Origin: a virus
Strand: one strand, 5' to 3'
IMG/VR virus record: IMGVR_UViG_3300023240_000078
Location: 1 to 30,006 of that record
Length of the DNA: 30,006 nt
The notes below the pieces were generated by a model. It was not told the DNA's origin. It was given only the letters and a program-made list of their open reading frames with translations, and did no database searches. Of the stretch, positions 14,936 through 29,295 are shown piece after piece. The position numbers were made by a program, and so were the translations under genes. Positions within the stretch are counted from its first letter, which is position 1. Every line of letters starts with the position of its first letter.

Positions 14936-14960
14936 ATAGACTTTAAAGGTCTTAAAAGTT

Positions 14961-15089: not shown

Positions 15090-15090
15090 T

Positions 15091-15809: not shown

Positions 15810-15830
15810 TTACCCCTGCGATTATAGGGG

Positions 15831-15859
15831 TTGACACGAGAGACCAACTGTGATGTTCT
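15831..15859 (+). promoter_or_regulatory. Putative promoter with inverted repeat
   Basis: TTGACA (15831-15836) with TGTTCT at 17-base spacing. GAGACCA (15840-15846) and TGGTCTC (15861-15867) form a 7-bp dyad around the -10 region. The block CCAACTGTGATGTTCTGTGG is almost the same as at 18250-18285. Confidence 0.45.
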
Positions 15860-15907
15860 GTGGTCTCCTCTTCACCACAATCTATATTTATATAAAGGCT
15901 AACGCAT

Positions 15908-16153
15908 ATGATTCAGTTTCAAGGTAAAGTACTTTCCGAGACTAAAGGTAAATATGAATCCTTTTACTACCAAGATGGACTTCTTAAGCTACAAGTTATA
16001 CAGACTAAGGAGTGTAAAAATCCCCTTAAAGCCTGTGAAAAAGCTGTAATGAGTATTCAAGGCATTAAAGCCAATGTGTTCGACTACAATGGCGGTACAT
16101 CCTTTGGAGGTAATATAGTAGCCTTCGTTCAAGAGTTTACAGAGGTTAAATGA
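15908..16153 (+). CDS. 81-aa protein of unknown function
   Basis: A compact alternating beta/helix protein (MIQFQGKVLSETKGKYES, later GGTSFGGNIVAFVQEF). The start lies behind AAAGGCTAACGCAT, a modest ribosome site. It is the first gene behind the promoter at 15831, ending one base before the start of the second DUF6197-like gene. Unknown role. Confidence 0.6.
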   Translation: MIQFQGKVLSETKGKYESFYYQDGLLKLQVIQTKECKNPLKACEKAVMSIQGIKANVFDYNGGTSFGGNIVAFVQEFTEVK

Positions 16154-16154
16154 T

Positions 16155-16475
16155 ATGAATCCCTTTAAAAAGTTAGTAATTAAAAATATATTGATTAAAG
16201 CTAAAGCGGTTATAGCTAACCCGGATAATTGGATTCAGAACTCTATGGCTCAGGGTATAGATGGGTGGCAGACTAGTGTTTCAGATCCTCAAGCCTGTAA
16301 GTTCTGTAGTGTAGGAGCAATCTATAAGGTAAATGGCTCGATGAATAGTGTTACAGAGTTAGCACGTATTGCTTTAGAGAAAAATACCGGAGGTCTTTCT
16401 TTAGATATGTTTAACGATACCCATACACATCAAGAAGTAATGGCTTTATTTGATACGGCGATTAAAAATGCTTAA
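16155..16475 (+). CDS. DUF6197-like protein, copy 2
   Basis: A 106-aa paralogue: NPDNWI, ACKFCSVGAIYKV and FNDTHTHQEVMALFDTAI. Two cysteines (CKFC) sit at the same place as in the other copies. The start follows GAGGTTAAATGAT, with the upstream stop two bases away. Unknown function; triplication suggests a role under selection against host variation. Confidence 0.7.
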   Translation: MNPFKKLVIKNILIKAKAVIANPDNWIQNSMAQGIDGWQTSVSDPQACKFCSVGAIYKVNGSMNSVTELARIALEKNTGGLSLDMFNDTHTHQEVMALFDTAIKNA

Positions 16476-16517
16476 ATACTATGCAGGAATAGGACACAGA
16501 ACGAGAAAGAGAATTAT

Positions 16518-16676
16518 ATGTATATAGAGATTTTACTTAAAGAGGCTAAAAAGGAAAATTTAGACTTTTACAAGCTTTACGCTAGTAGAAAGTTTGGTTT
16601 ACCTTATGAAGAGGTCACTCCTATATTAAGAAGGAAAGCTAAAGAGTCTTTACACCACTACTTTTATAGTAATTAA
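16518..16676 (+). CDS. Small 52-aa protein
   Basis: A charged helical protein (MYIEILLKEAKKENLDFYKL, later TPILRRKAKESL). It sits between two DUF6197-like genes with GAGA before the ATG; the shortness makes it moderate. The pattern of helices with Arg/Lys and Glu may suit protein binding. No family. Confidence 0.5.
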   Translation: MYIEILLKEAKKENLDFYKLYASRKFGLPYEEVTPILRRKAKESLHHYFYSN

Positions 16677-16686
16677 GGAGAAATAC

Positions 16687-17001
16687 ATGGACTTAGCAGT
16701 TAAAGTTATGTTAGAAAAAGCTAAAAATCTAATACGTAATCCTGATAATTGGACTACAGAAAAATATGCTAGAGATGCTAATGGAGTAAGTGTTAATCCT
16801 AAAAGCCCTGAAGCCTGTAAATTTTGTGTTCTAGGGGCTATTATGAATATACAGGGAGTGAATTGTGATGACCTTGATTATGTTTCCCGTATTTTATATA
16901 AAGCAACAGGTTATCTTAATATATCTTCTTTCAACGACAGCCATACACATAAACAAGTACTAGAGTTATTAGATAAAGCAATTAAAATAAATGGAGACTA
17001 A
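16687..17001 (+). CDS. DUF6197-like protein, copy 3
   Basis: A 104-aa paralogue with NPDNWT, ARDANGVSV, ACKFCVLGAIMNI and FNDSHTHKQVLELLDKAI. It is closer to the first copy in ARDxxGxxV and to the second in NPDNW. AAGGAG lies 6 nt before the ATG. Unknown function. Confidence 0.7.
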   Translation: MDLAVKVMLEKAKNLIRNPDNWTTEKYARDANGVSVNPKSPEACKFCVLGAIMNIQGVNCDDLDYVSRILYKATGYLNISSFNDSHTHKQVLELLDKAIKINGD

Positions 17002-17004
17002 ACC

Positions 17005-17529
17005 ATGCCATCAAGTTATTTAGAATTTACAGCTCATTTAATGTCGCATATCAGAGTAAATCCTGATAAACATAATGCAATCTTTTTATCCAAAGGTCGC
17101 TATACTGTAAGGCATATAGAACTAGAGGATTCTTCTTTTGATTCTATGATTGAAGGGCTTTTAAACTTTAATAAAAGTGCTGACCATACTAGATGTATTA
17201 TGGTTAAAAGTCCTAATAGTATTTTAAGATCTTTAGCATCCTGTAGACCCATATGTAATAAGTTTATGGGGCCTATGCCTTTAGTAAAGAGTATGTTGAC
17301 CTATTGTGCCCCTATGGAAAACGCTAAAATAGAGACTGTTAACTTTAAAGCAGTAGGAAGACTAGACGAAGCCTATTTAGTCCCTGATAGAAGGCAATTA
17401 GCTGCTGAAATGGTTAATGATAATAATGACCTAGTAGAGTTGGCTAAAACATCAATGAACTTAGCGAGTGTTACTGTAGGAGGCGCTGTAGCCTTTGAAG
17501 GCGCTCCATTATATGAAGTGAGGAGATAG
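17005..17529 (+). CDS. 174-aa protein of unknown function
   Basis: A mixed alpha/beta protein with a few cysteines in the middle (RCIMVKSPNSI, ASCRPICNK, MLTYCAP) and a Gly/Ala-rich C-terminus (ASVTVGGAVAFEGAPLY). No domain is recognised. GGAG precedes the start by about 8 bases. It ends shortly before the membrane-protein gene at 17531. Confidence 0.65.
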   Translation: MPSSYLEFTAHLMSHIRVNPDKHNAIFLSKGRYTVRHIELEDSSFDSMIEGLLNFNKSADHTRCIMVKSPNSILRSLASCRPICNKFMGPMPLVKSMLTYCAPMENAKIETVNFKAVGRLDEAYLVPDRRQLAAEMVNDNNDLVELAKTSMNLASVTVGGAVAFEGAPLYEVRR

Positions 17530-17530
17530 A

Positions 17531-17707
17531 ATGGACGTATATACTATAGGATTTATAATATTATTAATATGTATAGGATTTATGACTTATTACTTATCTA
17601 AGTATTACTTAATAAGTTTTACTCGTCTTTTTATTTGTTATATTGTATGCTTTTTAGTAGGTTGGTTTAATAAGGAAATTACAGACTTTATAATGAGGTT
17701 AATATGA
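17531..17707 (+). CDS. Small membrane protein, 58 aa
   Basis: Two predicted membrane helices (residues ~5-22 and 30-46). The end (GWFNKEITDFI) resembles the end of the protein at 18017 (GWYSNDLVDFY), so the pair is probably paralogous. The AGGAGAT of the upstream stop region serves as ribosome site. It overlaps the next tiny gene in ATGA. Confidence 0.65.
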   Translation: MDVYTIGFIILLICIGFMTYYLSKYYLISFTRLFICYIVCFLVGWFNKEITDFIMRLI

Positions 17708-17766
17708 TTAAAGTAATTAGAAAAGAAGATGTTATGATGGCTTCTATAGAGGTAATAGAGTTATGA
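17704..17766 (+). CDS. 20-aa micropeptide coupled on both sides
   Basis: ATG at 17704 overlaps the stop of the membrane protein (ATGA), and its stop overlaps the start of the lipoprotein (ATGA). The product is MIKVIRKEDVMMASIEVIEL. It may be a true peptide or a translational bridge keeping ribosomes on the next gene. Confidence 0.4.
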   Translation: MIKVIRKEDVMMASIEVIEL

Positions 17767-18017
17767 AAACTTTAAGTTTAATGTTACTATTAGTAGTAGT
17801 ACTATCAGGTTGTCAATCCTTTAATTCAGATAGACCTAAAAAGATTGAATGTTCTAAAGACCTTACAGTACCTATATCTTCCTGTATAAGTTATAGGAAA
17901 CCTTATAAAATACCTACTAAATGTGAAGTAGAAATTGTAGATAGTTGGGGTATAAAGTCCTGTATTACTAGGAATACTCTACGTATAATGTTAAATAATA
18001 CAACAGGAGTTTATTAA
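17763..18017 (+). CDS. Small lipoprotein
   Basis: An 84-aa protein with a signal peptide (residues 1-16, hydrophobic LMLLLVVV) and a lipobox LSGC at 14-17, so C17 should be lipidated. The mature part has four further cysteines (C30, C41, C54, C67), which could form two disulphides, so it is probably periplasmic. Phage lipoproteins of this size include outer-membrane spanins and superinfection-exclusion proteins; the lysis context is missing here, so the second is a reasonable guess. Its stop overlaps the next start by one base (TAATG). Confidence 0.75.
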   Translation: MKTLSLMLLLVVVLSGCQSFNSDRPKKIECSKDLTVPISSCISYRKPYKIPTKCEVEIVDSWGIKSCITRNTLRIMLNNTTGVY

Positions 18018-18208
18018 TGGAAAGTTACTTTAAATTTAAATATATTATAGGTATCATATTACATGTAGTACCTCTAGCACTTATATCGGTTTACTTAAGT
18101 CTTCCTGAATATTTTATACTTGTATTAGTATTTTTTATAGGGTGGTATAGTAACGATTTAGTAGACTTCTATATTAAAACCTTTAAAAAGCTGACTGGCA
18201 ATCTATAG
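18017..18208 (+). CDS. Small membrane protein, 63 aa
   Basis: Two predicted membrane helices (residues ~8-27 and 31-47) and a Lys-rich tail (KTFKKLTGNL). It resembles the 58-aa protein on the other side of the lipoprotein at its C-terminal GW-x5-DF motif. It is translationally coupled to the lipoprotein. Confidence 0.65.
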   Translation: MESYFKFKYIIGIILHVVPLALISVYLSLPEYFILVLVFFIGWYSNDLVDFYIKTFKKLTGNL

Positions 18209-18249
18209 AATAACGCACATACCTGTATTGAATATCACACGAATAGGGC

Positions 18250-18278
18250 TGGACATTCTCAGCCAACTGTGGTGTTCT
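18250..18278 (+). promoter_or_regulatory. Putative promoter of the 18419 region
   Basis: TGGACA (18250-18255) with TGTTCT at 17-base spacing. GGCTG/CAGCC form a hairpin around the -35 region. It shares AATAGGGCTKGACATTC with the site at 27605, and CCAACTGTGRTGTTCTGTGG with 15831. Confidence 0.4.
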
Positions 18279-18348
18279 GTGGGAAGTCAGGGCAGCAGTG
18301 CATCACCTGAAAAGAAATACACTCACACGTTTATAAGGAGAAACTGAT

Positions 18349-18357
18349 ATGCCTTAA
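18349..18357 (+). other. Start-stop minigene (ATG CCT TAA) with a strong ribosome site
   Basis: AAGGAG (18335-18340) lies 8 nt before an ATG that is followed by one codon and a stop. The next frame after a +1 shift would give a 16-aa hydrophobic peptide. It may be a real minigene, a broken gene or a regulatory signal. The leader ACACTCACAC also precedes the gene at 12704. Confidence 0.35.
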
Positions 18358-18418
18358 ACTAGTAGGATTATATTTTTATATTACTTATTTATCAACATAA
18401 CCTTAAAAGGTATACACA

Positions 18419-18937
18419 ATGAATAAAGCAAATTTTGATTATAGTAGTTTAGAAGCGGATCGAGAAGCCACCTATAGGCAGAAGTTAGGTATAGGTAATC
18501 TATTTAGTGGTAAAGGCTTTAAATGTCTTCAAGAAGGCGAGAAGCCTGACTGGGCACAAGGAAGACGTATTGCGGCAATGATAACTGATTATCATGCTAA
18601 TATATCTAAAGATACTTTAACTCATGGTAGAGTCCAAGAGATTAGAGCACTAAAGAGTCTTCCTAAAGTCTATAAAGACCTTTACGATAAAGATAAAGTA
18701 GGGATGAATACAGTAGACAGAGTAAGTTCTAAAGAAACTAGTGAGCCAGTTAGTACTAAAAAGCCCTCTTCTAATGAGAATCTATTGGTTTTAGATCTAA
18801 ATGATCCTGAAGCTGTAGAGAAACTTAGAAAGGCTTTACATATTGATAGTAAAGTATATGAAGACACTGAAGACGATGGGGATAAAGGCCCTAGTAATTC
18901 AGAGATTGAAAGTGAAGAAGGTAACTTTAACCCCTAA
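18419..18937 (+). CDS. 172-aa protein with acidic C-terminus, unknown
   Basis: The N-terminal part (ATYRQKLGIGNLFSGKGFKC then EKPDWAQGRRIAAMITDYHA) looks like a folded domain. The C-terminal ~55 residues are Asp/Glu-rich and probably disordered (DTEDDGDKGPSNSEIESEEG). Such tails occur in DNA-mimic or protein-binding phage proteins, but no family is recognised. A weak AAAAGG precedes the start. It is followed by a terminator. Confidence 0.65.
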   Translation: MNKANFDYSSLEADREATYRQKLGIGNLFSGKGFKCLQEGEKPDWAQGRRIAAMITDYHANISKDTLTHGRVQEIRALKSLPKVYKDLYDKDKVGMNTVDRVSSKETSEPVSTKKPSSNENLLVLDLNDPEAVEKLRKALHIDSKVYEDTEDDGDKGPSNSEIESEEGNFNP

Positions 18938-18966
18938 GTAATACTTTCCTCTGAAGGTTCTAATAG

Positions 18967-18984
18967 AGCCTTTGGAGGCTTTTT
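18967..18984 (+). terminator. Rho-independent terminator
   Basis: AGCCT-TTGG-AGGCT forms a 5-bp stem with a 4-nt loop, followed by four Ts and then AGATT. It ends the transcript of the 172-aa gene. Confidence 0.7.
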
Positions 18985-19002
18985 AGATTAAAAGGTACCT
19001 AT

Positions 19003-19188
19003 ATGGAAATTTTAAAAGATTTTAGAAATGTTTTATACACTATACCTAGTATATATTATTTAGGTATAAATTTGGTTTTAATGTTTATTGTTCTTTTTGC
19101 TGGTTTGGGTTTATTAGTTAATGTAGGTTTAGTTATTACTCAAGTTACCTGTATGTTTTTACACTTTAAAACTAGCGCTAAGTCTTAA
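19003..19188 (+). CDS. Small membrane protein, 61 aa
   Basis: The protein is mostly hydrophobic from residue 17 to 56 (LGINLVLMFIVLFAGLGLLV and VGLVITQVTCMFLHF), probably two membrane helices. AAAAGG precedes the ATG. Unknown function. Confidence 0.6.
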   Translation: MEILKDFRNVLYTIPSIYYLGINLVLMFIVLFAGLGLLVNVGLVITQVTCMFLHFKTSAKS

Positions 19189-19200
19189 GGAGATATTTAT

Positions 19201-19407
19201 ATGGAATGGTTTTTATTGTATTTTATAGGGTGTGTAATTGTATTTGGACTTTCTAACGCTTACTGGATAAATATACATAATGTTTATAACGAGCCTGTAG
19301 TGTGGTGTACAAGTTTATTTAGCTTTGTTATGTTACCTCTTTTACTTATACTTTATAATATGGGTAGCTATACTTACTGTGGTTTTAGTTATAAATTAAA
19401 AATGTAG
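19201..19407 (+). CDS. Small membrane protein, 68 aa
   Basis: Two membrane helices (residues ~2-20 and 36-54) flank a loop with WINIHNVYNEPVVW. AAGGAGATATTT precedes the ATG. Unknown function. Confidence 0.6.
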   Translation: MEWFLLYFIGCVIVFGLSNAYWINIHNVYNEPVVWCTSLFSFVMLPLLLILYNMGSYTYCGFSYKLKM

Positions 19408-19415
19408 AGGCTTGT

Positions 19416-19874
19416 ATGAAAAAATACTTAGTGATAAGAGATGGTGAGAGTACTAGTTTACACAAAAGAGGTGAAACTTATGAAGCTGAAGTAAAAACTA
19501 TTTCAAATAAGTCCCTAGTACTCTTACCATTAGGATGTAATTATTCAATAGAGTTTAAAGTTAATATTTATGGTAAATATTTAAACCCTTTATGGACATT
19601 AATAATTGAAGATGGAGAAGATGAAATGAAAAGTAATTCTTGTAGTTTAGGATCAGCTCTAGATATTAAAACAGTTGTTACTGTTGACGGTACGGACATT
19701 AAGCTCTTAGATGTAAAAGGTGTCCTTAATTGTATTAAAAAGGAGCAGAATAGTATAGTTCAATTACAGGACGTACTAATTACAGTTACTTGCGTAGCTG
19801 TTACTCGTATGATAGAGACTCATAAGGCTAATATTTCATTCTTTGTTTCGGAGCTAGATAGTCGTGAGGAGTAA
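19416..19874 (+). CDS. 152-aa protein upstream of the ligase island
   Basis: A protein of unknown fold with an N-terminal beta region (KKYLVIRDGESTSLHKRGET) and a helical C-terminus. No domain is recognised. AGAGG lies shortly before the ATG. Its stop is two bases before the next start, so it may belong to the same operon as the ATP-grasp gene. Confidence 0.6.
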   Translation: MKKYLVIRDGESTSLHKRGETYEAEVKTISNKSLVLLPLGCNYSIEFKVNIYGKYLNPLWTLIIEDGEDEMKSNSCSLGSALDIKTVVTVDGTDIKLLDVKGVLNCIKKEQNSIVQLQDVLITVTCVAVTRMIETHKANISFFVSELDSREE

Positions 19875-19876
19875 TA

Positions 19877-20713
19877 ATGACCTACTTAAATCCTTATATC
19901 CTAAGACGTTTAAAACTAGGAAGAACTAGTACACCAGCTATAGCGGCCTTATCTACTACAGGTATTATAAGTCGTAGATATAGTCATCAGATACCCCCTG
20001 AATGTGATCTTGTTATTCGATGGGGCTGTACAGCTAACATTAGACAACAGAATGTAATTAATACTGCTCATGCTATTCATGAAGTTAATGATAAAAGCTT
20101 ATTTAGAGTTAAACTAAATGAAGCTGAATTATGTCCTGAGACTTGGAACGCTTCTAATAGACATGGTATCGTATTACCTTGTATTGTAAGACCTCAGCAC
20201 CATAGTAGAGGACTTAGGTTATATTATTGTATGAACCAAGTACAACTACAAACAGCTATTGAGCGTTGCGGTGAAGGTTGGTATGCTTCCGAGTATATCC
20301 CTAAAGACGCAGAGTATAGAGTCTTTGTATCTCAAGGTCGATGCATTGCAGTAGCTAAAAAGAATCCAGAGAACTCTGAAGCAATCGCTTGGAACGTAGC
20401 ACAAGGAGGAGATTTTGAAAATGTCAGATGGGACGCATGGCCCCTTAAAGCCGTCAAGGTCTCTATTGAAGCATTTAACCTTTCCTCATTGGACTTTGGT
20501 GGAGTCGATATTATGGTGGGTAGTAATGGGAATTGTTATGTACTCGAAATTAACAGCGCCCCTAGTCTAACATCCCCATATAGACAGGAGTGCATGACTA
20601 AAGCTTTAGACTATATGATTACTAATGGTAAAGAAAGGATACCTTTAATAGAAGAAAGGGGAGGATATCTTAAGTTTATTCACCCTTGTATTAATGAGAG
20701 GGCTAGAGTATGA
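19877..20713 (+). CDS. ATP-grasp ligase
   Basis: A 278-aa protein with the late ATP-grasp signature: YIPKDAEYRVFV (residues 140-151) followed by LDFGGVDIMVGSNGNCYVLE (205-224) and INSAPSL. D206, D211, E224 and N226 are the usual metal/ATP ligands. The N-terminal part has RWGCTANIR and a glycine/basic loop RPQHHSRG (105-112). Enzymes of this fold form amide bonds by activating a carboxyl with ATP. GAGGAG precedes the ATG. It opens the island that continues to 26303. Confidence 0.88.
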   Translation: MTYLNPYILRRLKLGRTSTPAIAALSTTGIISRRYSHQIPPECDLVIRWGCTANIRQQNVINTAHAIHEVNDKSLFRVKLNEAELCPETWNASNRHGIVLPCIVRPQHHSRGLRLYYCMNQVQLQTAIERCGEGWYASEYIPKDAEYRVFVSQGRCIAVAKKNPENSEAIAWNVAQGGDFENVRWDAWPLKAVKVSIEAFNLSSLDFGGVDIMVGSNGNCYVLEINSAPSLTSPYRQECMTKALDYMITNGKERIPLIEERGGYLKFIHPCINERARV

Positions 20714-20928
20714 AAATTATAAAGGAACCCAATAAACCTATAGCTCGCTATCAAAACTTTATAACAGGAGATCATATTACTTTGTATAATAGTAGAAATG
20801 TTTATAATATAATTATAGGACAAGAAGAAGGAATAGTACAATCAACGTTGGAATGTTTTAATATTATAAGTGCTTTAGAGATTTTTAGTAATCAAGTAAA
20901 CAAACTAATAGGACTAAAACATGCATAA
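20710..20928 (+). CDS. 72-aa protein inside the ligase island
   Basis: It overlaps the ATP-grasp stop by ATGA and the next start by 8 bases. The sequence (KIIKEPNKPIARYQNFITGD, LEIFSNQVNKLIGLKHA) has no recognised motif. It could be a peptide or acceptor substrate of the ligases, but this is speculation. Confidence 0.6.
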   Translation: MKIIKEPNKPIARYQNFITGDHITLYNSRNVYNIIIGQEEGIVQSTLECFNIISALEIFSNQVNKLIGLKHA

Positions 20929-21274
20929 ATTAGCAGTGTATGGTACATTAAGGTCTAAAGATTCTTGGTCGGGCGTTTTAAGTACTCAAATATATTTAGG
21001 AAAAGGACTTCTCCCTAACAATATAGCTATTCATGATTTAGGAGGTTATCCTGCTGTACGTATTATTAAAGGAGTAGTAGATAAGCCTACAATCTGCGAA
21101 GTCTATGAAATAGATGATGTAGCTCTTGCTCGATGCGATCAAATAGAAGGCCACCCTAATTTTTATGAAAGACGTTTAGTAGATATTGATGGTTATGGTG
21201 ATTGTCTTGTATATTTTTTAGATGATTGTGAGTCTTATCCTCGTATTATTTCAGGAGATTGGTTTGATAAATAA
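20921..21274 (+). CDS. Gamma-glutamylcyclotransferase-like protein
   Basis: A 117-aa GGCT-fold protein. YGTLR (residues 7-11), GGYPAV (41-46), VYEIDD (61-66) and DQIEGHPNFYERR (73-85) are all present, and the glutamate at 76 sits at the catalytic position. Enzymes of this fold release gamma-glutamyl groups as 5-oxoproline or remove gamma-glutamyl protection (as BtrG does). In a ligase island it probably trims or finishes a gamma-glutamyl conjugate. Confidence 0.88.
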   Translation: MHKLAVYGTLRSKDSWSGVLSTQIYLGKGLLPNNIAIHDLGGYPAVRIIKGVVDKPTICEVYEIDDVALARCDQIEGHPNFYERRLVDIDGYGDCLVYFLDDCESYPRIISGDWFDK

Positions 21275-22157
21275 TAAATTATATAACCTTAATTACTATT
21301 TAGAAATAGGTAATAATAACTTTAGACATAAAACTAGAAAGGATTCTAATTGTATCTGGATAGCTGCGAGATTTGGTTTACCATTTAATGATTATGGTAG
21401 TGATTGTTATAATCAAATATACTATACAGGATGTCATGGTTTCGTTATTGGTGAGGGTATTGAAGACAAAGATGCTGTAATATCTAGTCTTTATAACTCT
21501 TATAATCAGCCTAAATTAACTACTGAAGATTTAGATCAGTATTATTCAGAGGTTATGCCATATTTTAATGCTTATTTGCTTAAGGATTTTGAATTAGGTG
21601 ATAAAGTTATAGCGGTTAATCCTAATTGTGCTGGTAATATGGCTATGATGGCTCTTATTATATCTAGGCAGCCTTGGGAATGTCTAAATTTCTTATCAGT
21701 ATATATAAAAGCTCGTAAAGAAGGCTATAATCCTCTTATGGCGGTCTATTTGGGTCAGTATACCAAGTACCATCCTATAATGAGAGGTGATTTAAGTAGC
21801 GATCATGATGTATTTAATAACTATATAGATTTAAATAGACTTTATAAGTTTATTGTAACAGGAAAACCTCATATAAAAAACCTTAAAAGTTTTAATCAAA
21901 AGAGCAAAGAGGGTGTATTCAGTGCTTTTAAAGCTAGAGTGTCAGCGCCTTCTTATCATTTGAATACTTTAGGTTTTAGGGATAAATATAAAATTATAAA
22001 GACCTCTTCCTTTAATAATACACATTTTATGAGCGAAGCTGGAGTAGATCCAGAGTTACAATTTAATCATCTTAATGAGGAGGCAGAAAGAGTTATGACT
22101 AATTTGAATGATAAAGTATATGAGACCTTAAGAGGTAAACCTAAATGTGCGGTATAG
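21264..22157 (+). CDS. Unknown 297-aa protein of the ligase island
   Basis: Start chosen at TTG 21264 because AGGAG lies 6 nt upstream; an ATG at 21222 would overlap the GGCT gene by 53 bases and has no ribosome site. The protein has CIWIAARFGLPFNDYG (30s), a Cys/Tyr-rich piece CYNQIYYTGCHGF, AVNPNCAGNMAMMALII, and a Lys-rich C-terminus. No family is recognised. It overlaps both neighbours and is therefore very likely part of the pathway. It may be a missing enzyme or a carrier; unproven. Confidence 0.7.
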   Translation: MINNKLYNLNYYLEIGNNNFRHKTRKDSNCIWIAARFGLPFNDYGSDCYNQIYYTGCHGFVIGEGIEDKDAVISSLYNSYNQPKLTTEDLDQYYSEVMPYFNAYLLKDFELGDKVIAVNPNCAGNMAMMALIISRQPWECLNFLSVYIKARKEGYNPLMAVYLGQYTKYHPIMRGDLSSDHDVFNNYIDLNRLYKFIVTGKPHIKNLKSFNQKSKEGVFSAFKARVSAPSYHLNTLGFRDKYKIIKTSSFNNTHFMSEAGVDPELQFNHLNEEAERVMTNLNDKVYETLRGKPKCAV

Positions 22158-23512
22158 TAGGAGTAGCAGGATATATATCCTCTGATATTGAAAGACTTTT
22201 TACTTCTTTATTACTTATTGATGTACTCCGAGGAAAGGACAGTACCGGGGTTATTAAAGTAAATAATGATAGCCAAGCTACTACTTATCTTAAAATGGCA
22301 GAACCTTCTCCTTATTTTATAGATACTAAGGAATATCAAAGCTTTATGAATACTTTTCATTCAGTATTAGTAGGACATAATAGAGCAGCAACCTTTGGTA
22401 AAGTTACTCATGAGAATGCCCATCCTTTTATGCATAGTAATATAGTAGGGGTACATAATGGGACGTTATCTGATGTAAGTTTACTTCCTAAGCATAAAGA
22501 TTTTGACGTAGATAGTGATAACTTAATATATAGTATTGCTACCGATGGTATTAAAGCTACCTATGAAAAGTTAGATGGTGCTGCGGCTTTAGTATGGTAT
22601 GATATAAGTAATTCTACACTATACTTTTTACGGAATTCTGAGAGACCTCTTCATTATGGTTATTTAGAACGTTACAACACTCTCGTATGGTCTAGTGATC
22701 CTAATATGCTAAGATATGCTATTAAGAACACAAGAAATTGTAATCTTAAAGATGATAAAGTTTATATGTTTAAAGAAGATACTCTTCATAGCTTTGTAAT
22801 ACCTAAAAATACAAAGCATGGACAAGAGATGAAACCTAAACTTAGACCTTTAGAACCTTATATAGACCCTTTCCCTACCACAACATATTATGGAAGGTAT
22901 AGTAATTATAAGCCTAATAATAGTAACATTACAAATGTTAATGTTAAAAGATTACCTAGTCCTACTAATCAAAGTAAATCTGTTAATATATACAGTAAAG
23001 GGCCTTTAAAGATTAGGGATACAATATACGCAATATTAGATTCTTATGAAGATAAAGGAGGTAGATTAGTAGGTTATTCTCATCAAGCCCAAAAGAAAGT
23101 ATTAATCTATGTTAATGGACAGAAAGATTTACTAGAGATATGCAAAGGGTTTAAGGATAAAACTCTAGATACTGTAACAATAAGAGGTGTAGTTAACTGG
23201 TTCGGAGCAGTACAAGGTATAGCAGGTGATCCTGTTTTAGACCCTTCAAGTATAAACATACTTTCTAAGGTACTTCCAGAAAAAAAGTTTAAATCTTCAG
23301 CAAAGAAACCTACAGGGGAAGTCGTTAAAATCGGGACTAGCTACCTTGCTGAAGAAGATTGGAATAGGCTAGTATCTCAGGGTTGTAAAGAATGTGGTGA
23401 TAAACCCTTATCTCTAAACGCTGACGAGCTTTATTGGGAACCTGATGGTAGTTTCCTATGTTCAGACAACTGTATTATGACCCAAAAAGAGGAGTATAAA
23501 TTATGGTTTTAA
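22145..23512 (+). CDS. Class II glutamine amidotransferase with C-terminal zinc finger
   Basis: A 455-aa protein beginning MCGIVGVAGY. C2 is the N-terminal nucleophile, HNRAAT (78-83) and HNGTL (104-108) bind glutamine, and DSDN (123-126) fits the class II pattern. These domains hydrolyse glutamine to supply ammonia. Residues ~285-375 form an unknown middle region with a beta-rich look, and the C-terminus has C414-x2-C417 and C439-x3-C443, a zinc finger like those at 14299/14654. It overlaps the preceding gene by 13 bases and the next by 10. Its partner is probably one of the island ligases. Confidence 0.88.
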   Translation: MCGIVGVAGYISSDIERLFTSLLLIDVLRGKDSTGVIKVNNDSQATTYLKMAEPSPYFIDTKEYQSFMNTFHSVLVGHNRAATFGKVTHENAHPFMHSNIVGVHNGTLSDVSLLPKHKDFDVDSDNLIYSIATDGIKATYEKLDGAAALVWYDISNSTLYFLRNSERPLHYGYLERYNTLVWSSDPNMLRYAIKNTRNCNLKDDKVYMFKEDTLHSFVIPKNTKHGQEMKPKLRPLEPYIDPFPTTTYYGRYSNYKPNNSNITNVNVKRLPSPTNQSKSVNIYSKGPLKIRDTIYAILDSYEDKGGRLVGYSHQAQKKVLIYVNGQKDLLEICKGFKDKTLDTVTIRGVVNWFGAVQGIAGDPVLDPSSINILSKVLPEKKFKSSAKKPTGEVVKIGTSYLAEEDWNRLVSQGCKECGDKPLSLNADELYWEPDGSFLCSDNCIMTQKEEYKLWF

Positions 23513-24288
23513 AAGTAGGAGCAGATCCAGAGCTGTTCATTAAAGATAGATCAGGTATTCTTGTTTCCGGATTTTCAATGATTAGGGGGACTAAGGTACA
23601 TCCCTTTCCTGTTAATAAAGGAGCAGTACAGGTCGATGGTATAGCCTTAGAATACAATATTGATCCTGCTACGACTGTCGAAGACTTTGTAAACAATAAC
23701 TGTACAGTAATGAGATCATTAATAAAAATGATACCTCCTAACTTAGAGTTTAATATAATCCCTTGTGTGGATATTACTCCTGACTTTTATAAGTCACAAC
23801 CAGATGAAGCTATGATGTTAGGGTGTGAACCTTCTTATAATGCTTACAGCGAAGACGTAGAAAAAGTAAGTCCTCTATCTCATATTAGAACGGCAGCAGG
23901 GCATCTACATTTAGGATGGACAGACGATACTGAAGCTAATAATGCTCAACATTTCTTCGATTGTTGTGCTCTTGTTAAAGAGTTGGATGTATTTTATAAT
24001 GTTTTAACATTACACTACTCTGATATAGAATTAGAAATGAAGCGTAAAATGCTATATGGTGCTGCGGGTTCATTTAGACCTAAATCTTACGGTGTAGAGT
24101 ATAGGGCTTTATCTAATTTTTGGATTAAAGATGAAGAGCTTATGAAAAAAGTGTTTGAAATAGCTCAGACAGTTTTTAATAGGATGCTTACAGGTGAAAA
24201 ACTATTATCTGATATATATACAGGTAGAGAATTAGACCGTGTAACTAAAGAACAGATAGAAGAGGTAAGTAGCCTTGTTTCAATTTAA
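23503..24288 (+). CDS. Phage COOH-NH2 ligase (amidoligase-like)
   Basis: A 261-aa protein of the phage phiEco32-type COOH-NH2 ligase family. Diagnostic blocks are GADPELF (residues 6-12), DGIALEYNIDP (45-55), RTAAGHLHLGW (129-139) and YGAAGSFRPKSYGVEYR (185-201) followed by ALSNFW. The GADPE and DG-EYN blocks provide metal/ATP ligands of the glutamine-synthetase fold. It should join a carboxyl to an amine with ATP. Stop and start overlap with the neighbours. Confidence 0.85.
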   Translation: MVLKVGADPELFIKDRSGILVSGFSMIRGTKVHPFPVNKGAVQVDGIALEYNIDPATTVEDFVNNNCTVMRSLIKMIPPNLEFNIIPCVDITPDFYKSQPDEAMMLGCEPSYNAYSEDVEKVSPLSHIRTAAGHLHLGWTDDTEANNAQHFFDCCALVKELDVFYNVLTLHYSDIELEMKRKMLYGAAGSFRPKSYGVEYRALSNFWIKDEELMKKVFEIAQTVFNRMLTGEKLLSDIYTGRELDRVTKEQIEEVSSLVSI

Positions 24289-24883
24289 TAAAATGGCTAA
24301 TGAAGATATAAATAGTAGATATAATAATGCTATAATTTTAGTTAACGGTAGATTATTTATTTGTTATGATTCAGATAAGCATAACTTAGAAGGTAGATAC
24401 TTAAATGAAGAAAATACTTCTGTGATATCTACAAAACATAACGATATAAATACACAAAGCCCTAAACTAGGTTATTTAAATTATGGTAATCATACTACAT
24501 ATGTATCAAGAATACCTGTAAGATTTTATAGGCATGGTCTTAATGTCCGTAATTTAGTAAGTTTTTCACCTACTGACGGAAGACGTAGAGATACGTTTAG
24601 TTTTTTAGAACATAATACAATCTTCTCTGAAGGTCTACAAAATACTATACATAATAAATACCCTACTTTTAAGCAGTGTATAGTTAAAGTAGGTACATTA
24701 AAGTCGAGAATAAGGTCTAATGCTTTCGATAGAGAGAGCGCTTTAGTATCTGTAAATGGTGTAATAAATGTATATTTTGGTACTACTAAAGTAGGGAAAG
24801 TAGTAGAGGATATGGTTATTTTAGATGATGAGCATATGTATCTTAAAGAATATTTTGGAGAATTAGATGTCCCTATACACTAG
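24275..24883 (+). CDS. Unknown 202-aa protein of the ligase island
   Basis: Start is TTG at 24275, with GAGG 9 nt upstream and a 14-base overlap with the ligase gene; an ATG at 24293 is possible. The protein has NSRYNNAIILVNGRLFICYD (residues 13-32), NYGNHTTYVSRIPVRFY, and FSPTDGRRRDTFSF, patterns seen in phage proteins of unknown role. It overlaps the next gene by 17 bases. It may be a substrate, regulator or accessory enzyme. Confidence 0.7.
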   Translation: MFQFNKMANEDINSRYNNAIILVNGRLFICYDSDKHNLEGRYLNEENTSVISTKHNDINTQSPKLGYLNYGNHTTYVSRIPVRFYRHGLNVRNLVSFSPTDGRRRDTFSFLEHNTIFSEGLQNTIHNKYPTFKQCIVKVGTLKSRIRSNAFDRESALVSVNGVINVYFGTTKVGKVVEDMVILDDEHMYLKEYFGELDVPIH

Positions 24884-26303
24884 TGTATATGATAAAAAAT
24901 TAACAGACGAGTTAGGGCTAGTTAGTCCTGAAGGTGATGTAGGACTAGAAATTGAAGCTGAGGTAATAGAATATATTTCAGACTCTAAAGAACTATCTTT
25001 TTGGAGAAAAGAACAAGATGGATCGTTAAGAGGCCCTAATTATGAATTAGTTTTAAAGAGACCTATACCCCATACTTTAGTACCTAAAGCTCTCCAACAG
25101 GCTTATGAGTTTTTAAATAAAGGACGCTATCCAGACAGCGATAACTGTGGGGTACATGTACATCTTAATATGACACAGTGTACTATAAGAGAACTTGTCA
25201 ATCTCATTGCTGTATACTTTATTTTAGAGCCTTTGTTAATATCTATTTGTTCCCCTACTCGTAAGGGTAATTATTTTTGCCTGTCTGCTTTAGAATCTCA
25301 TACTCAATTTGAGACCTTAGAAAAGATATCTAATATAAATTTCTCAATGCTCCGTGATTCTATGAAATATGCAGGTATTAATTTAGGAGCTTTAACAAGT
25401 TATGGCTCCTTAGAATTTAGACACCTTCAGTTCCCTGTAACTGAAGAATTTTTAAATAAATGGGTTGACATTTTATGTGAAATAAAGCATAATATACTAG
25501 AGTTAAGTAAAAGTAAGGACTCAGATATAGTATGTAGACGTATATCTGAAATGGGTATAGTAGACTTTGTAAAAGATTATGCCCCTAGCCTTGCTGAACT
25601 TTTAGACTTTGAAGATAAAGATTTACTTAATGAATGTAGAATATCTATGAGAAAAGCCCAAGTACCTCTATTTACTATGGCGAGAAATATAGTAAAAGGA
25701 AGTAAGTTTAGGGCTTATAGTGAAGATATTAAAGCTAGTGAAGATACTCTGCCCACATATACTACTCTGCCCACATATACTATACCTGAAAGTTCACCTA
25801 CATTTGTACCTGAGGGTAGTTTTGATTTTAGTACACATGTATATACCTCTATATCCTGCATAGATATAAACTTCACAAAGGCTAATGGAGAGAATGTAAA
25901 TATTAAGCGTTTAGATAACTTTATGGAGTTATATATTCATACAGACTACGAATTAGGGATAGCTCTTCAAGGTAGAAGATGCTTACTTAACAGAAGTAAG
26001 GTGGAAATATTACATGATAAACTACCTAGAGATTTGATTAATAGTAATAATAATAGAATACTTAGATATCTAGATTCTTTTATAGAAAGAAGAAGATATG
26101 CTGACTACTTAGAGGCTTATATTGAGTATGTAGTTCCTTTAGGTTTAGAGCTAAATAGAAATAGAGATAATATAGAGAATAGCCCTGTAGGTAGATCTAT
26201 GGGTTCAGGATCAGATTTATCAGAAGCTTTACAACGATATACTACAAGAAACTCTGATGCAGATACTCCTGAGCCTAATCCGCGTTTCATTAATCCTACC
26301 TAG
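24867..26303 (+). CDS. Amidoligase_2 family enzyme
   Basis: A 478-aa protein. GLEIEAE (residues 26-32), KEQDGSLRGPNYELVLKRP (48-66), CGVHVHLN (94-101), and YGSLEFRHLQFP (179-190) are the family's conserved blocks; H97 and H99 are likely metal ligands. It is a second enzyme of the glutamine-synthetase/GCS fold in the same operon. The C-terminal ~200 residues are an extension with a tandem TLPTYT repeat (18-bp direct repeat at 25746-25781). It ends the overlapping gene series. GGAG lies 7 nt upstream of the ATG. A near-consensus promoter lies inside (25465-25493). Confidence 0.85.
   Translation: MSLYTSVYDKKLTDELGLVSPEGDVGLEIEAEVIEYISDSKELSFWRKEQDGSLRGPNYELVLKRPIPHTLVPKALQQAYEFLNKGRYPDSDNCGVHVHLNMTQCTIRELVNLIAVYFILEPLLISICSPTRKGNYFCLSALESHTQFETLEKISNINFSMLRDSMKYAGINLGALTSYGSLEFRHLQFPVTEEFLNKWVDILCEIKHNILELSKSKDSDIVCRRISEMGIVDFVKDYAPSLAELLDFEDKDLLNECRISMRKAQVPLFTMARNIVKGSKFRAYSEDIKASEDTLPTYTTLPTYTIPESSPTFVPEGSFDFSTHVYTSISCIDINFTKANGENVNIKRLDNFMELYIHTDYELGIALQGRRCLLNRSKVEILHDKLPRDLINSNNNRILRYLDSFIERRRYADYLEAYIEYVVPLGLELNRNRDNIENSPVGRSMGSGSDLSEALQRYTTRNSDADTPEPNPRFINPT
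25465..25493 (+). promoter_or_regulatory. Promoter-like site inside the amidoligase gene
   Basis: TTGACA (25465-25470), a 17-base spacer and CATAAT (25488-25493), five of six bases matching the -10 consensus. In AT-rich sequence chance matches are not rare. Confidence 0.4.
25746..25781 (+). repeat. Tandem 18-bp repeat in the amidoligase gene
   Basis: ACTCTGCCCACATATACT occurs twice head to tail (25746-25763 and 25764-25781), giving the protein repeat TLPTYT twice. The CTG and CCC codons differ from the usual codons here. It may be a slippage hot spot. Confidence 0.8.
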
Positions 26304-26335
26304 TTTTAATAATAATAAAAAGAAGATAAAACTTT

Positions 26336-26611
26336 ATGATGATAATAAAATGTTCAATCTGCCCAGCAGAAGACAACATGAGAGAATTAACACGACCTTG
26401 GTTTGAAGATGGTAATACTGATTTATGTCCTGATTGCTATGAAAGCTTTGCAGATGATAATGACTTACTAGTTAGTGAGTATAAAGAACGTAAGGAGATA
26501 ATATTCGATAGACTTAGAGAGAAAACGAAAATAAAAGATAGTATAAAAGTAGATAATGTACTGAAATTAGTTAGTAAAGAAAACACTGAGGATTTATTGG
26601 ATGAAAGTTAA
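26336..26611 (+). CDS. Zinc-ribbon protein upstream of thyX
   Basis: A 91-aa protein with CSIC (residues 6-9) and CPDC (32-35), a four-cysteine zinc site, followed by a charged, helical C-terminus. It overlaps the thyX start by 11 bases, so the two are coupled. Zinc ribbons in phages often act in transcription or repair; the role here is unknown. The ribosome site (AGAAGAT) is modest. Confidence 0.65.
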   Translation: MMIIKCSICPAEDNMRELTRPWFEDGNTDLCPDCYESFADDNDLLVSEYKERKEIIFDRLREKTKIKDSIKVDNVLKLVSKENTEDLLDES

Positions 26612-27242
26612 ATTAATTTCTCATACTATTCCAGTAGATAATAGTATACCTAAAAATCTATTAGAACTTGTAGCCTATATAGCTAGAGTAAGTAACCCTA
26701 GTTCTCAAATCGAAAATATGAATAGTGGTAAACTTCTAGACTATTTAGAACGTAATAATCACTGGTCTCCATTTGAAATGGTTAATATATGTATTGAGAT
26801 AGAGACTACTCGTGATATAGCTAGGCAAATATTAAGGCATAGATCGTTCTCTTTTCAAGAGTTTAGTCAACGCTACGCAGACCCGAGCGAAGAGGGATTG
26901 ACATTCTCGCTGAGACCTGCCAGAATGCAAGACAGCTCGAACAGGCAGAACTCTACTGAATGTAATGATAAAGACTTAATGGAGTGGTGGGTACAACAAC
27001 AGAAGAAAGTTAAAGATGTAAGTCTTTCAGCTTATACTCAGGCTTTAGAAAAGGGTATAGCTAAAGAGGTAGCTAGAGCATTATTACCTGAAGGTATGAC
27101 AGGTTCTAGACTATACATGAATGGTTCTTTAAGATCTTGGTTGCACTATATAGAGCTTAGAGAAGGTAACGGTACTCAACTTGAACATCAAGAAATTGCT
27201 GTTGAGTGTAGTAAAATTATTCTAAAGCTTATGGAGTCTTAG
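26601..27242 (+). CDS. thyX: Flavin-dependent thymidylate synthase
   Basis: A 213-aa protein with the ThyX signature RHRSFSFQEFSQRY (residues 79-92), and the later conserved ARALLPEGMTGSRLYMNGSL with RSWLHYIELREG. It methylates dUMP to dTMP using FAD and methylenetetrahydrofolate, supporting the phage's AT-rich DNA synthesis. An unusually GC-rich stretch inside (26871-26950, 45 of 80 bases) carries a promoter-like site. Confidence 0.95.
   Translation: MKVKLISHTIPVDNSIPKNLLELVAYIARVSNPSSQIENMNSGKLLDYLERNNHWSPFEMVNICIEIETTRDIARQILRHRSFSFQEFSQRYADPSEEGLTFSLRPARMQDSSNRQNSTECNDKDLMEWWVQQQKKVKDVSLSAYTQALEKGIAKEVARALLPEGMTGSRLYMNGSLRSWLHYIELREGNGTQLEHQEIAVECSKIILKLMES
26898..26926 (+). promoter_or_regulatory. 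Promoter-like site inside thyX
   Basis: TTGACA (26898-26903), a 17-base spacer and CAGAAT (26921-26926). The TTGACATTCTC start is shared with the other promoter-like sites in the window. The codons here (TTG, TCG, CTG, AGC) are unlike those of the neighbouring sequence, as expected if DNA sequence is selected for itself. Confidence 0.55.
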
Positions 27243-27303
27243 AGTATTAAAAGTCTTGCCCCAGCAGGCGTATTGTAAGTTAATTTTATTAGGAGAAAGC
27301 GTA

Positions 27304-27540
27304 ATGAACCTCAATACAGTTATTATTAATACATATCGTGAGTCAGCTAGAGCAGGACAAAGAGGATTGAAAAAGCTTCAGCGTAAAGTATATGCTCACC
27401 GTAATCGAGTAGAGTTTTTAGAGAACTTTATTAAACTACGTCAGATGGATGGAGAACTACAAGCTGTAGAACTTAGAATTAAACAAGAACGTCTTGGTGC
27501 TTGGGTGTCTAGGGATATTACTCATTTTGAAGAGGTATAA
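27304..27540 (+). CDS. 78-aa helical protein
   Basis: Start at ATG 27304, with AGGAG 8 nt upstream; an upstream in-frame TTG at 27256 has none. The protein is Arg/Lys-rich and helical (SARAGQRGLKKLQRKVYAHR, later LQAVELRIKQERLG). It may bind nucleic acid or protein. Unknown family. It is the last gene before the promoter at 27605. Confidence 0.65.
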   Translation: MNLNTVIINTYRESARAGQRGLKKLQRKVYAHRNRVEFLENFIKLRQMDGELQAVELRIKQERLGAWVSRDITHFEEV

Positions 27541-27604
27541 AGTTACTACATGTTATAACTACCAAGGAGTAATAAGTATAACTTTATTAAAATAAAAATA
27601 GGGC

Positions 27605-27633
27605 TTGACATTCCCTGCCAAACATGTCATGAT
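27605..27633 (+). promoter_or_regulatory. Promoter of the DNA-binding protein gene
   Basis: TTGACA (27605-27610), a 17-base spacer and CATGAT (27628-27633). The upstream sequence AATAGGGCTTGACATTC is shared with the site at 18250. It precedes the single-strand DNA-binding protein gene by about 50 bases. Confidence 0.6.
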
Positions 27634-27684
27634 GTGAAACACGAATGACGAAAGATCTTCGTACTAATAAAAATTAAAACAACT

Positions 27685-28128
27685 ATGGAGATATCCAAAC
27701 ATATGTTACTATATGGTATAGCTTATTGGGCAGCTATTAAAACACCCAATACTAAATTTCAACCTCAGTATACTATTAACGTAGTACCAGAGGATGAGCA
27801 GGACTTAGAAGAGTTAAAGACTAAAGGTTTTAAAACTAAACCTGTAGGCCCTAATAATGAAGAGTCTGTAGTTATCCGGCGTTACGTTGAGGGTAAGAAA
27901 GGGCTTAATGAAATGCCTAAACTTAGGGATGCACACAATAACCCTATTGATGTTCAAGTAGGTAATGGCTCTAGAGTATGTGTTCAGTATAAAGAGTTCT
28001 CAGGTGTAGGTGCTTTTGGGCCTTATCAAGGACTTGATTTACAGGCAGTTCAGGTTATGGATCTAGTAGAGTACTCTGGAGCAGATGGCTCAGAGTTTCA
28101 AGACTTTGATCCTGATTCAGAACTATAA
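27685..28128 (+). CDS. Single-stranded DNA-binding protein
   Basis: A 147-aa protein. The N-terminal part YGIAYWAAIKTPNTKFQPQY and INVVPEDEQD, the middle GNGSRVCVQYKEF and the C-terminal GLDLQAVQVMDLVEY match phage single-strand DNA-binding proteins of the gp2.5/DUF2815-like type. The acidic C-terminus (EFQDFDPDSEL) is the usual protein-interaction tail. It coats single-stranded DNA during replication. The ATG at 27685 lacks a strong ribosome site; the ATG at 27703 with GGAG 12 nt upstream is an alternative. It has its own promoter, as fits a protein needed in large amounts. Confidence 0.82.
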   Translation: MEISKHMLLYGIAYWAAIKTPNTKFQPQYTINVVPEDEQDLEELKTKGFKTKPVGPNNEESVVIRRYVEGKKGLNEMPKLRDAHNNPIDVQVGNGSRVCVQYKEFSGVGAFGPYQGLDLQAVQVMDLVEYSGADGSEFQDFDPDSEL

Positions 28129-28157
28129 AGTAAACCTCCTTTAGATAAAGGAAATTC

Positions 28158-28330
28158 AAGCAGGCCCTGAATATTATAAACCTGCACCTTTGTACTCTGA
28201 TTAATCGGCAGAGACTATATAGCATACTGGCCCTGCTTAAACCAGTCCATTAAAATAAGAGAAGTAGCTTAAGAGTAAAGCGGCGGCTAACCGGCTGTGC
28301 ATAGTAGGTGCAAACACTACTCTTCTCACC
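28158..28330 (+). ncRNA. Structured non-coding RNA candidate with a tRNA-like second half
   Basis: The 227-base gap between genes is not coding. AAGCAGGCC (28158-28166) pairs with GGCCCTGCTT (28229-28238) with one bulge, enclosing CTCTG/CAGAG (28195-28213). Then GAGAAG (28259-28264) pairs with CTTCTC (28322-28327) around GCTT/AAGC (28267-28281) and AGTAGGTG-CAAA-CACTACT (28303-28321). The order of stems, the TAGCTT start of the second one and a TGCAAAC loop resemble a tRNA, but the anticodon arm does not form. It ends with ACC before a T. It may be a degenerate tRNA or an mRNA leader. Confidence 0.45.
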
Positions 28331-28355
28331 TTTAAAATAACTATAGGATTTTAAA

Positions 28356-28763
28356 ATGACACTACGAGTGAATAGTCACGGCGGAGAATGCTGTGGAATC
28401 CGTCACGTTTATGGTTTTTACGATTACGATTACGATCATTTTAACTTAGATGAAATCTATGATGAACTCTATAATTTAGCTCTAGTACAGACCAGTTCTA
28501 AATATACAAATGACTTCTCAAGTCGTTTAGTAGAGGTAGTACTAACAAATGCACAGCCTCTAGAGTTCCATCAGGCATGCATAGACATAGGGTTCGTAGT
28601 TGTTAATTGGTTTGTTAATCATAATTCAGGTAATACTTGTATGATATACCATATTGCTAGAGATCCTGAAAGCGGTTCCTTACCTATAAGGACTCAAGCC
28701 CAATCTTTAGCATTAGTTAACCGTACATTATTAACTCGTAAAGATATTGATAAGCAACCTTAA
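28356..28763 (+). CDS. 135-aa protein with HGGECCGIRH motif
   Basis: The N-terminus has HGGECCGIRHVYGFYDYD (residues 8-25), a cysteine/histidine-rich patch that may bind metal; similar starts occur in small phage proteins of unknown role. The rest is mixed alpha/beta. The start follows AGGATTTTAAA. The gene follows the structured RNA region directly, whose RNA may form its leader. Confidence 0.65.
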   Translation: MTLRVNSHGGECCGIRHVYGFYDYDYDHFNLDEIYDELYNLALVQTSSKYTNDFSSRLVEVVLTNAQPLEFHQACIDIGFVVVNWFVNHNSGNTCMIYHIARDPESGSLPIRTQAQSLALVNRTLLTRKDIDKQP

Positions 28764-28782
28764 TTAACTCAGGTATTTTTAA

Positions 28783-29295
28783 ATGAACAAGTGGATAATA
28801 AGTGACCTGCATCTAGGACATAAAAGTATCCTAGAATTTGAACCTAATAGACTAGGAGAGAAAGTAGATAGTGTAGAAGAGCATGATGATATCTTAGAAG
28901 TAAGATACAGAGCTACTGTACAACCTAAAGATACATGTTATTTCTTAGGTGACGTAGCCTTCTCAGCTAAAAAGCTAGAGAGTATTAAGAACTGGCCGGG
29001 GCGTAAAGTATTAATACGAGGGAACCACGATGATAAATCAGAGGAACTCTATAGACATATATTTACTAAAATCTATGGAGTCCTTAAAATTGATAGGGTC
29101 TGGTTCAGTCATGCACCTATACATACTCAAGAGCTTAGAGGGTGTCCTAGTGTACATGGTCATGTTCATAGTAATATAATTCTTGATGGGTATCATAGAC
29201 CTGATAAGCGCTATAGAGCAGTATGTGTAGAACAGAATCAAGGATGGCCTGAAAGTTTTGATAGAGTTATTGAGGAGGTAAAATCTAATGGATAA
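28783..29295 (+). CDS. Metallophosphoesterase
   Basis: A 170-aa calcineurin-like enzyme. DLHLGH (residues 8-13), YFLGDVAF, IRGNHDD, WFSHAPI and GHVH are all present, giving a complete two-metal site. The substrate is unknown; phage enzymes of this kind act on nucleotides or 2',3'-phosphates. It overlaps the next small gene by 8 bases. Confidence 0.9.
   Translation: MNKWIISDLHLGHKSILEFEPNRLGEKVDSVEEHDDILEVRYRATVQPKDTCYFLGDVAFSAKKLESIKNWPGRKVLIRGNHDDKSEELYRHIFTKIYGVLKIDRVWFSHAPIHTQELRGCPSVHGHVHSNIILDGYHRPDKRYRAVCVEQNQGWPESFDRVIEEVKSNG

Follow-up and report, generated by a model that had tools for sequence, protein, structure and literature searches.

We analyzed a 30,006-base stretch of viral DNA (IMG/VR record IMGVR_UViG_3300023240_000078; the whole stretch is called the window here, and its coordinates are used throughout), which lies within the 58,779-base viral contig IMGVR_UViG_3300022851_000005. 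Eight open reading frames (ORFs) on the plus strand, each overlapping the next, occupy positions 19877-26303 and form an intact-looking further copy of a phage amidoligase cassette, a kind of gene set that is already known. On balance, we lean toward the reading that this cassette makes and trims gamma-glutamyl-type amide bonds in the host cytoplasm during the middle stage of infection. The gene content, conserved residues and co-occurrence computed here were brought to bear on this reading, and we count in its favor a recurring five-gene core, the motif residues of its enzymes, the RimK-like profile of its ATP-grasp ligase and the finding of cellular loci only in metagenome-assembled genomes (MAGs). 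A gamma-glutamyl remover, either a gamma-glutamylamine cyclotransferase-like protein (GGACT) or a C26 peptidase, was moreover present in 65 of the 67 records searched whole. A first-pass annotation had described eight genes overlapping head to tail, and the ORF list together with Pfam and PHROGs bears out their coordinates, strand and enzyme families.

The family searches that this annotation had called for place five products in enzyme families, every one with a match exceeding the Pfam cut-off, assign the 202-aa protein u202 to phrog_11055 and leave a 72-aa protein and the 311-aa protein u311 without a match. For residue counts, each family was aligned with relatives from viral contigs and named phages, the window being one row; the viral-contig relatives are the best 80 of 443 loci encoding a COOH-NH2 ligase relative, ranked by likeness to the window. 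The ATP-grasp ligase matches Pfam RimK (3.5e-8, 33.7 bits against a cut-off of 21) and phrog_2599 (1.5e-22); Pfam R2K_3 also matches over its cut-off (1.3e-6), with the RimK model scoring higher, and the top NCBIfam match, MptN (3.4e-12), falls far under the MptN cut-off. K73, E146, R148, K162, D211, E224 and N226 are kept in 83 of 83 rows and R105 in 82 of 83, all of them in the window, and a profile of four ATP-grasp relatives finds RimK (1.1e-5) and other alpha-L-glutamate ligases nearest in the PDB. The GGACT protein (Pfam GGACT, 1.5e-14) shares E76 with all 30 rows and matches E. coli YtfP (PDB 1xhs, 1.8e-7). The class II glutamine amidotransferase (GATase) matches GATase_6 (1.1e-14), phrog_4736 across residues 1-420 (2.4e-80) and, in the PDB search, GlmS; its class II signature is present in the window (nucleophile Cys2, R29, N105, G106, D123), with C2 conserved in 67 of 68 rows and N105 and G106 in 81 of 82, followed by C-terminal cysteines C414 (78/80), C417 (79/80), C439 (78/81) and C443 (75/77).

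The two further ligases also keep their motifs. The COOH-NH2 ligase matches PF14395 (1.4e-7, 31.4 bits against a cut-off of 25) and phrog_3815 (3.1e-63), with E10, E50, H134, H136, R192, E199 and R201 in all 87 rows, and the Amidoligase_2 enzyme matches PF12224 (4.8e-5, or 2.5e-7 in a separate search; 23.8 bits against a cut-off of 22) and phrog_7469 (8.9e-47), with E28, E30, E32, E60, H97, H99, R132, E183 and R185 in all 83, the window included each time. Judged by family knowledge, these conserved residues are probably catalytic. The claim of a complete amidoligase and peptide-ligase set that keeps its family motifs thus agrees with the alignments, in which no enzyme was seen to lack its active-site residues, although the COOH-NH2 ligase of the window has S in place of D111 (86/87), along with E for N120 (82/87) and V for P122 (83/87). 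Further departures in the window include GATase E185 (81/85) to D, Amidoligase_2 R93 (75/83) to N and ATP-grasp G114 (71/83) to R.

A COOH-NH2 ligase was found in 317 of 50,697 phage records and an amidoligase in 211, and annotated relatives include PA11, CW02, Klyazma, DL54 (LUZ24-like), phiEco32, RIO-1, NV1 and LAh_9, as well as Proteus, Cronobacter, Salmonella, Rhizobium and Vibrio phages. Among 84,980 bacterial and archaeal species genomes, a short-pattern scan, which can miss relatives, found nine COOH-NH2 ligase loci, all in MAGs. We compared 87 loci encoding a COOH-NH2 ligase, counting the window and the look-alikes L015 and L016 but not the duplicates L002 and L003, and tallied gene content in the 62, again with the window, having at least 4.5 kb on each side. 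The core of class II GATase, COOH-NH2 ligase, u202, Amidoligase_2 and ATP-grasp ligase occurs together in 61 of the 62, the exception being L016, which indicates a grouping beyond chance and runs counter to the possibility that these genes never co-occur in related phages. Counted singly, GATase and ATP-grasp are present in all 62, u202 and Amidoligase_2 in 61, C26 and primase in 57, members of the u311 family in 51, GGACT in 26 and ThyX in 4. Most often the genes run (GGACT)-(u311 family)-C26-GATase-COOH-NH2 ligase-u202-Amidoligase_2-ATP-grasp-primase. The first-pass interpretation therefore holds in part: the set, its motifs and its co-occurrence stand, while u202 and u311, described there as two added unknown members, are usual ones near the branch of the window. 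At greater distance they are less frequent or have diverged beyond detection: of 25 held-out loci of at least 18 kb ranked by phiEco32, the same hidden Markov models (HMMs) recover u202 in 20 and a u311-family protein in 5, and of 18 such loci ranked by a Rhizobium phage, in 18 and 11, respectively.

Some loci differ in their arrangement or annotation. L086 (8431-16488) holds one cassette with two COOH-NH2 ligase and two GATase matches. In L074, u202 and Amidoligase_2 match on the plus and the minus strand alike; the inverted copy surrounds a piece of GATase and may have arisen in assembly. A proteasome-like partner was considered in Klyazma (orf027, L109 24974-25453, minus strand, "putative proteasome beta subunit") and rejected on its Pfam Proteasome match (E 0.093), which does not reach the cut-off.

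The distribution of the removers bears on the chemistry. C26 and GGACT are different Pfam families (Peptidase_C26 matches L027 at 1e-16). Gamma-glutamyl amides whose alpha-amine is free are substrates of both, PuuD being an example of C26 and BtrG of GGACT, and in PuuA-PuuD and BtrJ-BtrG a gamma-glutamyl ligase is paired with one or the other. The records searched whole comprise 50 IMG/VR contigs of at least 39 kb and 17 phage-collection records. C26 is present in 45 of the contigs and GGACT in 18; among the five contigs where C26 was not found, GGACT is present in three (L014, L035 and the full contig of the window) and neither in L012 and L074. The phage-collection records have C26 in 4 and GGACT in 14, including all 13 without C26. 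With L012 and L074 set aside as interrupted beside GATase, GGACT occurs in 16 of 16 records without C26 and in 16 of 49 with it (hypergeometric P = 9e-7, uncorrected for kinship). Two unrelated families in one slot suggest that gamma-glutamyl removal is a needed step.

A mechanism can be proposed from these identities. The class II GATase would liberate ammonia by acting on glutamine. Driven by ATP, each of the three ligases (COOH-NH2, Amidoligase_2 and RimK-type ATP-grasp) would form an amide or isopeptide bond, with glutamate presumably a substrate of one or more of them, and GGACT, or C26 in other phages, would take off the gamma-glutamyl cap. As for timing, passages on phage PaP3 list ORF32-48, with primase ORF40 among them, as middle genes peaking at 10-30 min (PMC4707531), and PaP3 is linked to this kind of cassette by the annotation of the PA11 COOH-NH2 ligase as similar to PaP3 p48 and by a gene table of UFV-P2; the place of this related cassette among middle genes suggests middle-stage expression.

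Several points weigh against this mechanism. The chemistry and the order of its steps are ones we infer, and the GATase could serve another synthase. The glutamine synthetase fold of both ligases is taken from their family names, and a sequence search of the PDB for the COOH-NH2 ligase family found no solved relative even at E 10; used as the sole query, the ATP-grasp sequence of the window finds only D-Ala-D-Ala ligases there (0.02-0.06). The remover was missing from L012, whose contig begins inside GATase, from L074, where the inverted copy breaks the set at a partial GATase, and, among 43 held-out loci of at least 18 kb, from L311 in the 20.8 kb examined of its 57-kb contig. The remover count comes from kin-related phages, and most of 13 later phage-collection records were picked as diverse and off the C26 list, so that their number is not a rate. 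The mechanism also leaves the 72-aa protein unexplained.

As to what is modified, we tentatively rank a peptide or protein tail at the head of the possible acceptors, with a small molecule next as a lesser possibility, the cell wall as an unlikely candidate and any other acceptor as less likely still. The tail came into consideration when many small genes of the CW02 and Klyazma cassettes were seen to end alike. A rule fixed after this first sighting compared the C-terminal six residues of ORFs of 40-160 aa, requiring a BLOSUM62 score of at least 17 to a center, and clusters of four or more tailed ORFs were counted, with clusters of three (L034, L107, L007, L234, L330, L361) left out. In the cassette set of 103 loci, which counts a small number of loci twice and also contains the second half of phiEco32, clusters occur in 9 loci, or 8 distinct phages (CW02 twice), as compared with 3, 0 and 1 of 103 when the same rule was applied 8, 16 and 24 residues from the protein end. 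None was found in 28 T7-like loci (T7 itself twice). Among 27 loci of at least 12 kb fetched by DNA polymerase, clusters occur in 0 of 25 without cassette genes and in 1 of 2 with them (L212, the contig of L051); among 53 shorter polymerase loci, the 6.7-kb L139 encodes three tailed proteins and, over that length, none of the cassette genes, and its polymerase is 69% identical to that of RHph_N3_19. Applied as it stood to 85 held-out loci, the rule detected clusters in 7 of 35 ranked by a Rhizobium phage and in 0 of 50 ranked by phiEco32. In the Rhizobium-ranked set, 6 clusters remain at offset 8, because those tails are long, and none at 16 or 24; five of the seven positives (L228-L232) are RHph_N3_19 kin with similar tails, and L280 and L300 are new kinds.

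In total, 15 distinct cassette phages (L110, which is CW02; L109, Klyazma; L108, RHph_N3_19; L086, L040, L051, L053, L054, L228-L232, L280 and L300) carry 142 tailed ORFs, 4-14 per phage, usually with an acidic, phage-specific tail (for example LLEENV, LENK, QxGDTEDDI, LEDWL, YEELYT or VEELI); in L280, 14 proteins end in variants of DKKYEELYT. The bodies of these proteins fall into 2-12 groups per phage, 114 overall, by BLASTP at E 0.01, a weak measure for such short proteins, and by eye many resemble small barrels. Compared with other small ORFs, tailed genes are concentrated within 2.5 kb of the cassette in CW02 (8 of 9, P = 1.1e-5), Klyazma (8 of 9, P = 4.8e-5) and RHph_N3_19 (12 of 13, P = 5.8e-5, in the 49.9 kb examined of 68.7 kb), and across the 15 phages 28 of the 40 small ORFs between the first and last core gene are tailed. 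No description of shared phage protein tails appeared among the matches listed by a literature search.

What was found is an association between tails and cassette; action of the ligases on the tails is hypothetical. A doubtful but specific form of the bond-making reading is that the cassette constitutes a modification system for protein C-terminal tails. The RimK-type ATP-grasp and the glutamine synthetase-type ligases would then join glutamate or another amine to the tails, and GGACT or C26 would undo the addition. In the window and L011, the parts of the contig examined for this, no tail cluster was found; in this phage, the acceptor would then be a single protein, or a small number of them, lacking a shared tail. 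Separately, three window proteins of 104-106 aa (15489-15809, 16155-16475 and 16687-17001) end in LFDRAIK, LFDTAIK and LLDKAIK and are probably paralogues. Shine-Dalgarno sequences or translational coupling may account in part for the shared tails of CW02, Klyazma and L051, where the tail DNA holds words like GGAGG, GGAG or AAAGG near the next start; in L086, RHph_N3_19 and partly L054, by contrast, the tail codons vary and the residues stay. The synonymous fractions at tails are inflated, since clusters were picked by residue similarity, and a random baseline is an unfair control for them. A rival reading of the tails is an interaction tail like that of single-stranded DNA-binding protein (SSB), with its acidic character and hydrophobic end.

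Other uses for the cassette were weighed against the same evidence. A small-molecule pathway, in which a glutamate-derived peptide or gamma-glutamyl amine would feed or reprogram the host, is possible, as a glutamine synthetase-type ligase pairs with C26 in amine utilization and an ATP-grasp ligase with GGACT in the butirosin pathway; the few cellular relatives, nine pattern-scan loci all on MAG contigs, count against it. The substrates of the removers speak in turn against peptidoglycan or envelope modification, in which the ligases would put unusual linkages on cell-wall peptides and thereby block superinfection: GGACT and C26 act on gamma-glutamyl groups whose alpha-amine is free, and D-Glu in the stem peptide has no such amine, and no wall-binding family is among the Pfam matches. 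We consider this use unlikely, although it is a hypothesis in print that cites work of the Aravind group (PMC5498523, PMC10580990); the passages stating it report no experiment, and the related PaP3 set is described as expressed alongside replication genes (PMC4707531). The authors of work on an OM43 phage class amidoligase and GATase as auxiliary metabolic genes, which is in keeping with the small-molecule pathway.

Hypermodification of DNA with amino-acid groups appears very improbable. The frequent primase (57 of 62 loci) and the position of ThyX as the second gene downstream of the cassette in the window would be consistent with it, but ThyX is found in just 4 of the 62 loci, and passages on phage tf, reported with amidoligase and GATase, describe DNA that is cut by RsaI, HpaI, EcoRV, SmaI and HaeIII (PMC3517423), which argues against heavy base modification.

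The members without a named enzyme family were examined separately. For the 72-aa protein and u311, no match below E 0.02 was obtained in Pfam, PHROGs or NCBIfam, and the 72-aa protein has no relative among the cassette loci compared. u311 joins a family (labeled K15), as an HMM built without u311 and its close relative in L052 matches it at 3.7e-15; other members match phrog_27195/34254, and C71 and R149 are present in 57 of 57 rows and E153 in 56. Its predicted model (pLDDT 69.7, pTM 0.76) gave no Foldseek match at E <= 0.001 in the PDB, and kinship with glutamine synthetase was rejected as too weak (one VIA row, Z 2.2, rmsd 5.3 over 145). In phiEco32 and DL54, the slot of u311 holds proteins that comparison could not tie to it (hhalign probability of only 24% for phiEco32 gp87; no similarity to u311 for DL54 gp51/gp52). 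The u202 protein matches phrog_11055 at 3.5e-26, and its predicted model (pLDDT 90.5), likewise without a Foldseek match at E <= 0.001, resembles an SH3/KOW/Tudor-like barrel over residues ~1-63 (Z <= 5.5, mostly ~50 residues). u202 and u311 would be partners of the enzymes, perhaps a docking subunit and a further enzyme. By eye, proteins of 72-95 aa with a VxxRxxPMT look recur next to the ATP-grasp gene in cassettes of phiEco32/LUZ24 type, between GATase and ATP-grasp in L095-L099, L102 and L008 and more loosely so in L101 and L005, and may be a further regular member; they are alike among themselves and not like the 72-aa protein of the window.

Table 1. Genes of the amidoligase cassette in the window
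Product	Position	Strand	Family evidence
ATP-grasp ligase, RimK/glutamate-ligase type, 278 aa	19877..20713	+	Pfam RimK, phrog_2599
72-aa orphan protein	20710..20928	+	No useful library match
GGACT gamma-glutamylamine cyclotransferase-like protein, 117 aa	20921..21274	+	Pfam GGACT
u311, 311-aa cassette-family protein (K15)	21222..22157	+	Family HMM
Class II glutamine amidotransferase (Cys2) with C-terminal four-cysteine zinc-knuckle-like segment, 455 aa	22145..23512	+	GATase_6, phrog_4736
COOH-NH2 ligase, phiEco32 type 2, 261 aa	23503..24288	+	PF14395, phrog_3815
u202, 202-aa protein between both ligases	24275..24883	+	phrog_11055
Amidoligase_2 enzyme with long C-terminal part, 478 aa	24867..26303	+	PF12224, phrog_7469

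Two of the starts listed in Table 1 have alternatives. The u311 ORF opens at ATG 21222, giving a 53-base overlap with GGACT, and the in-frame TTG at 21264, with AGGAG upstream at 21253, is the likelier start; u202 opens at TTG 24275, with ATG 24293 as an alternative. Upstream, a 152-aa protein (19416-19874) without a family match over the Pfam cut-off adjoins the ATP-grasp gene and has an acidic C-terminus, ...LDSREE, as a single case; RimK extends the acidic C-terminus of ribosomal protein S6, an end of similar kind. Genes for packaging and the head (terminase, SU10-type portal, capsid) lie on the minus strand at 158-11181, divergent from the plus-strand genes at 12187-29295, which include ThyX and a metallophosphoesterase-like gene. 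A promoter scan found 33 sites in comparison with 38 expected by chance, a count that is not informative.

The gene set was reportedly predicted by Iyer et al. in 2009. It is widespread, and no product is named in the literature passages on it; a near-constant core, interchangeable removers and shared tails now point to a bond type to seek and supply a list of candidate acceptors. If the tails are indeed the target, this would be a phage-encoded protein-tagging system. RimK, the S6-glutamate ligase (PDB 5zct, 4iwx), is the nearest solved relative of the phage ATP-grasp profile, at an E-value of only 1e-5, and it is not known to work with a glutamine synthetase-type partner. The ATP-grasp protein of the window also matches R2K_3 of the R2K peptide ligases, and the passages describing that group do not tie its phage proteins to the cassette (PMC4431377). 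Among the closest systems is the "peptidoglycan modification cassette" described for PSA-HP1, RIO-1, phiEco32, LUZ24/PaP3, PA11 and CW02 (PMC5498523), which shares with the window the class II GATase, COOH-NH2 ligase, ~200-aa protein, Amidoligase_2 and ATP-grasp. RIO-1, phiEco32, DL54 and CW02 have a gamma-glutamyl cyclotransferase as well, in the same run near primase, as the window has GGACT. Unlike those cassettes, the window places ATP-grasp, the 72-aa protein and GGACT first, has a diverged u311 and no C26, and shows no primase match. L052 (IMG/VR 3300025114_000087) has primase 4 kb downstream and no match to the 72-aa protein, but otherwise resembles the window in carrying ATP-grasp, GGACT, a u311-family protein (29% identical to that of the window), GATase, COOH-NH2 ligase, u202 and Amidoligase_2 in the same order.

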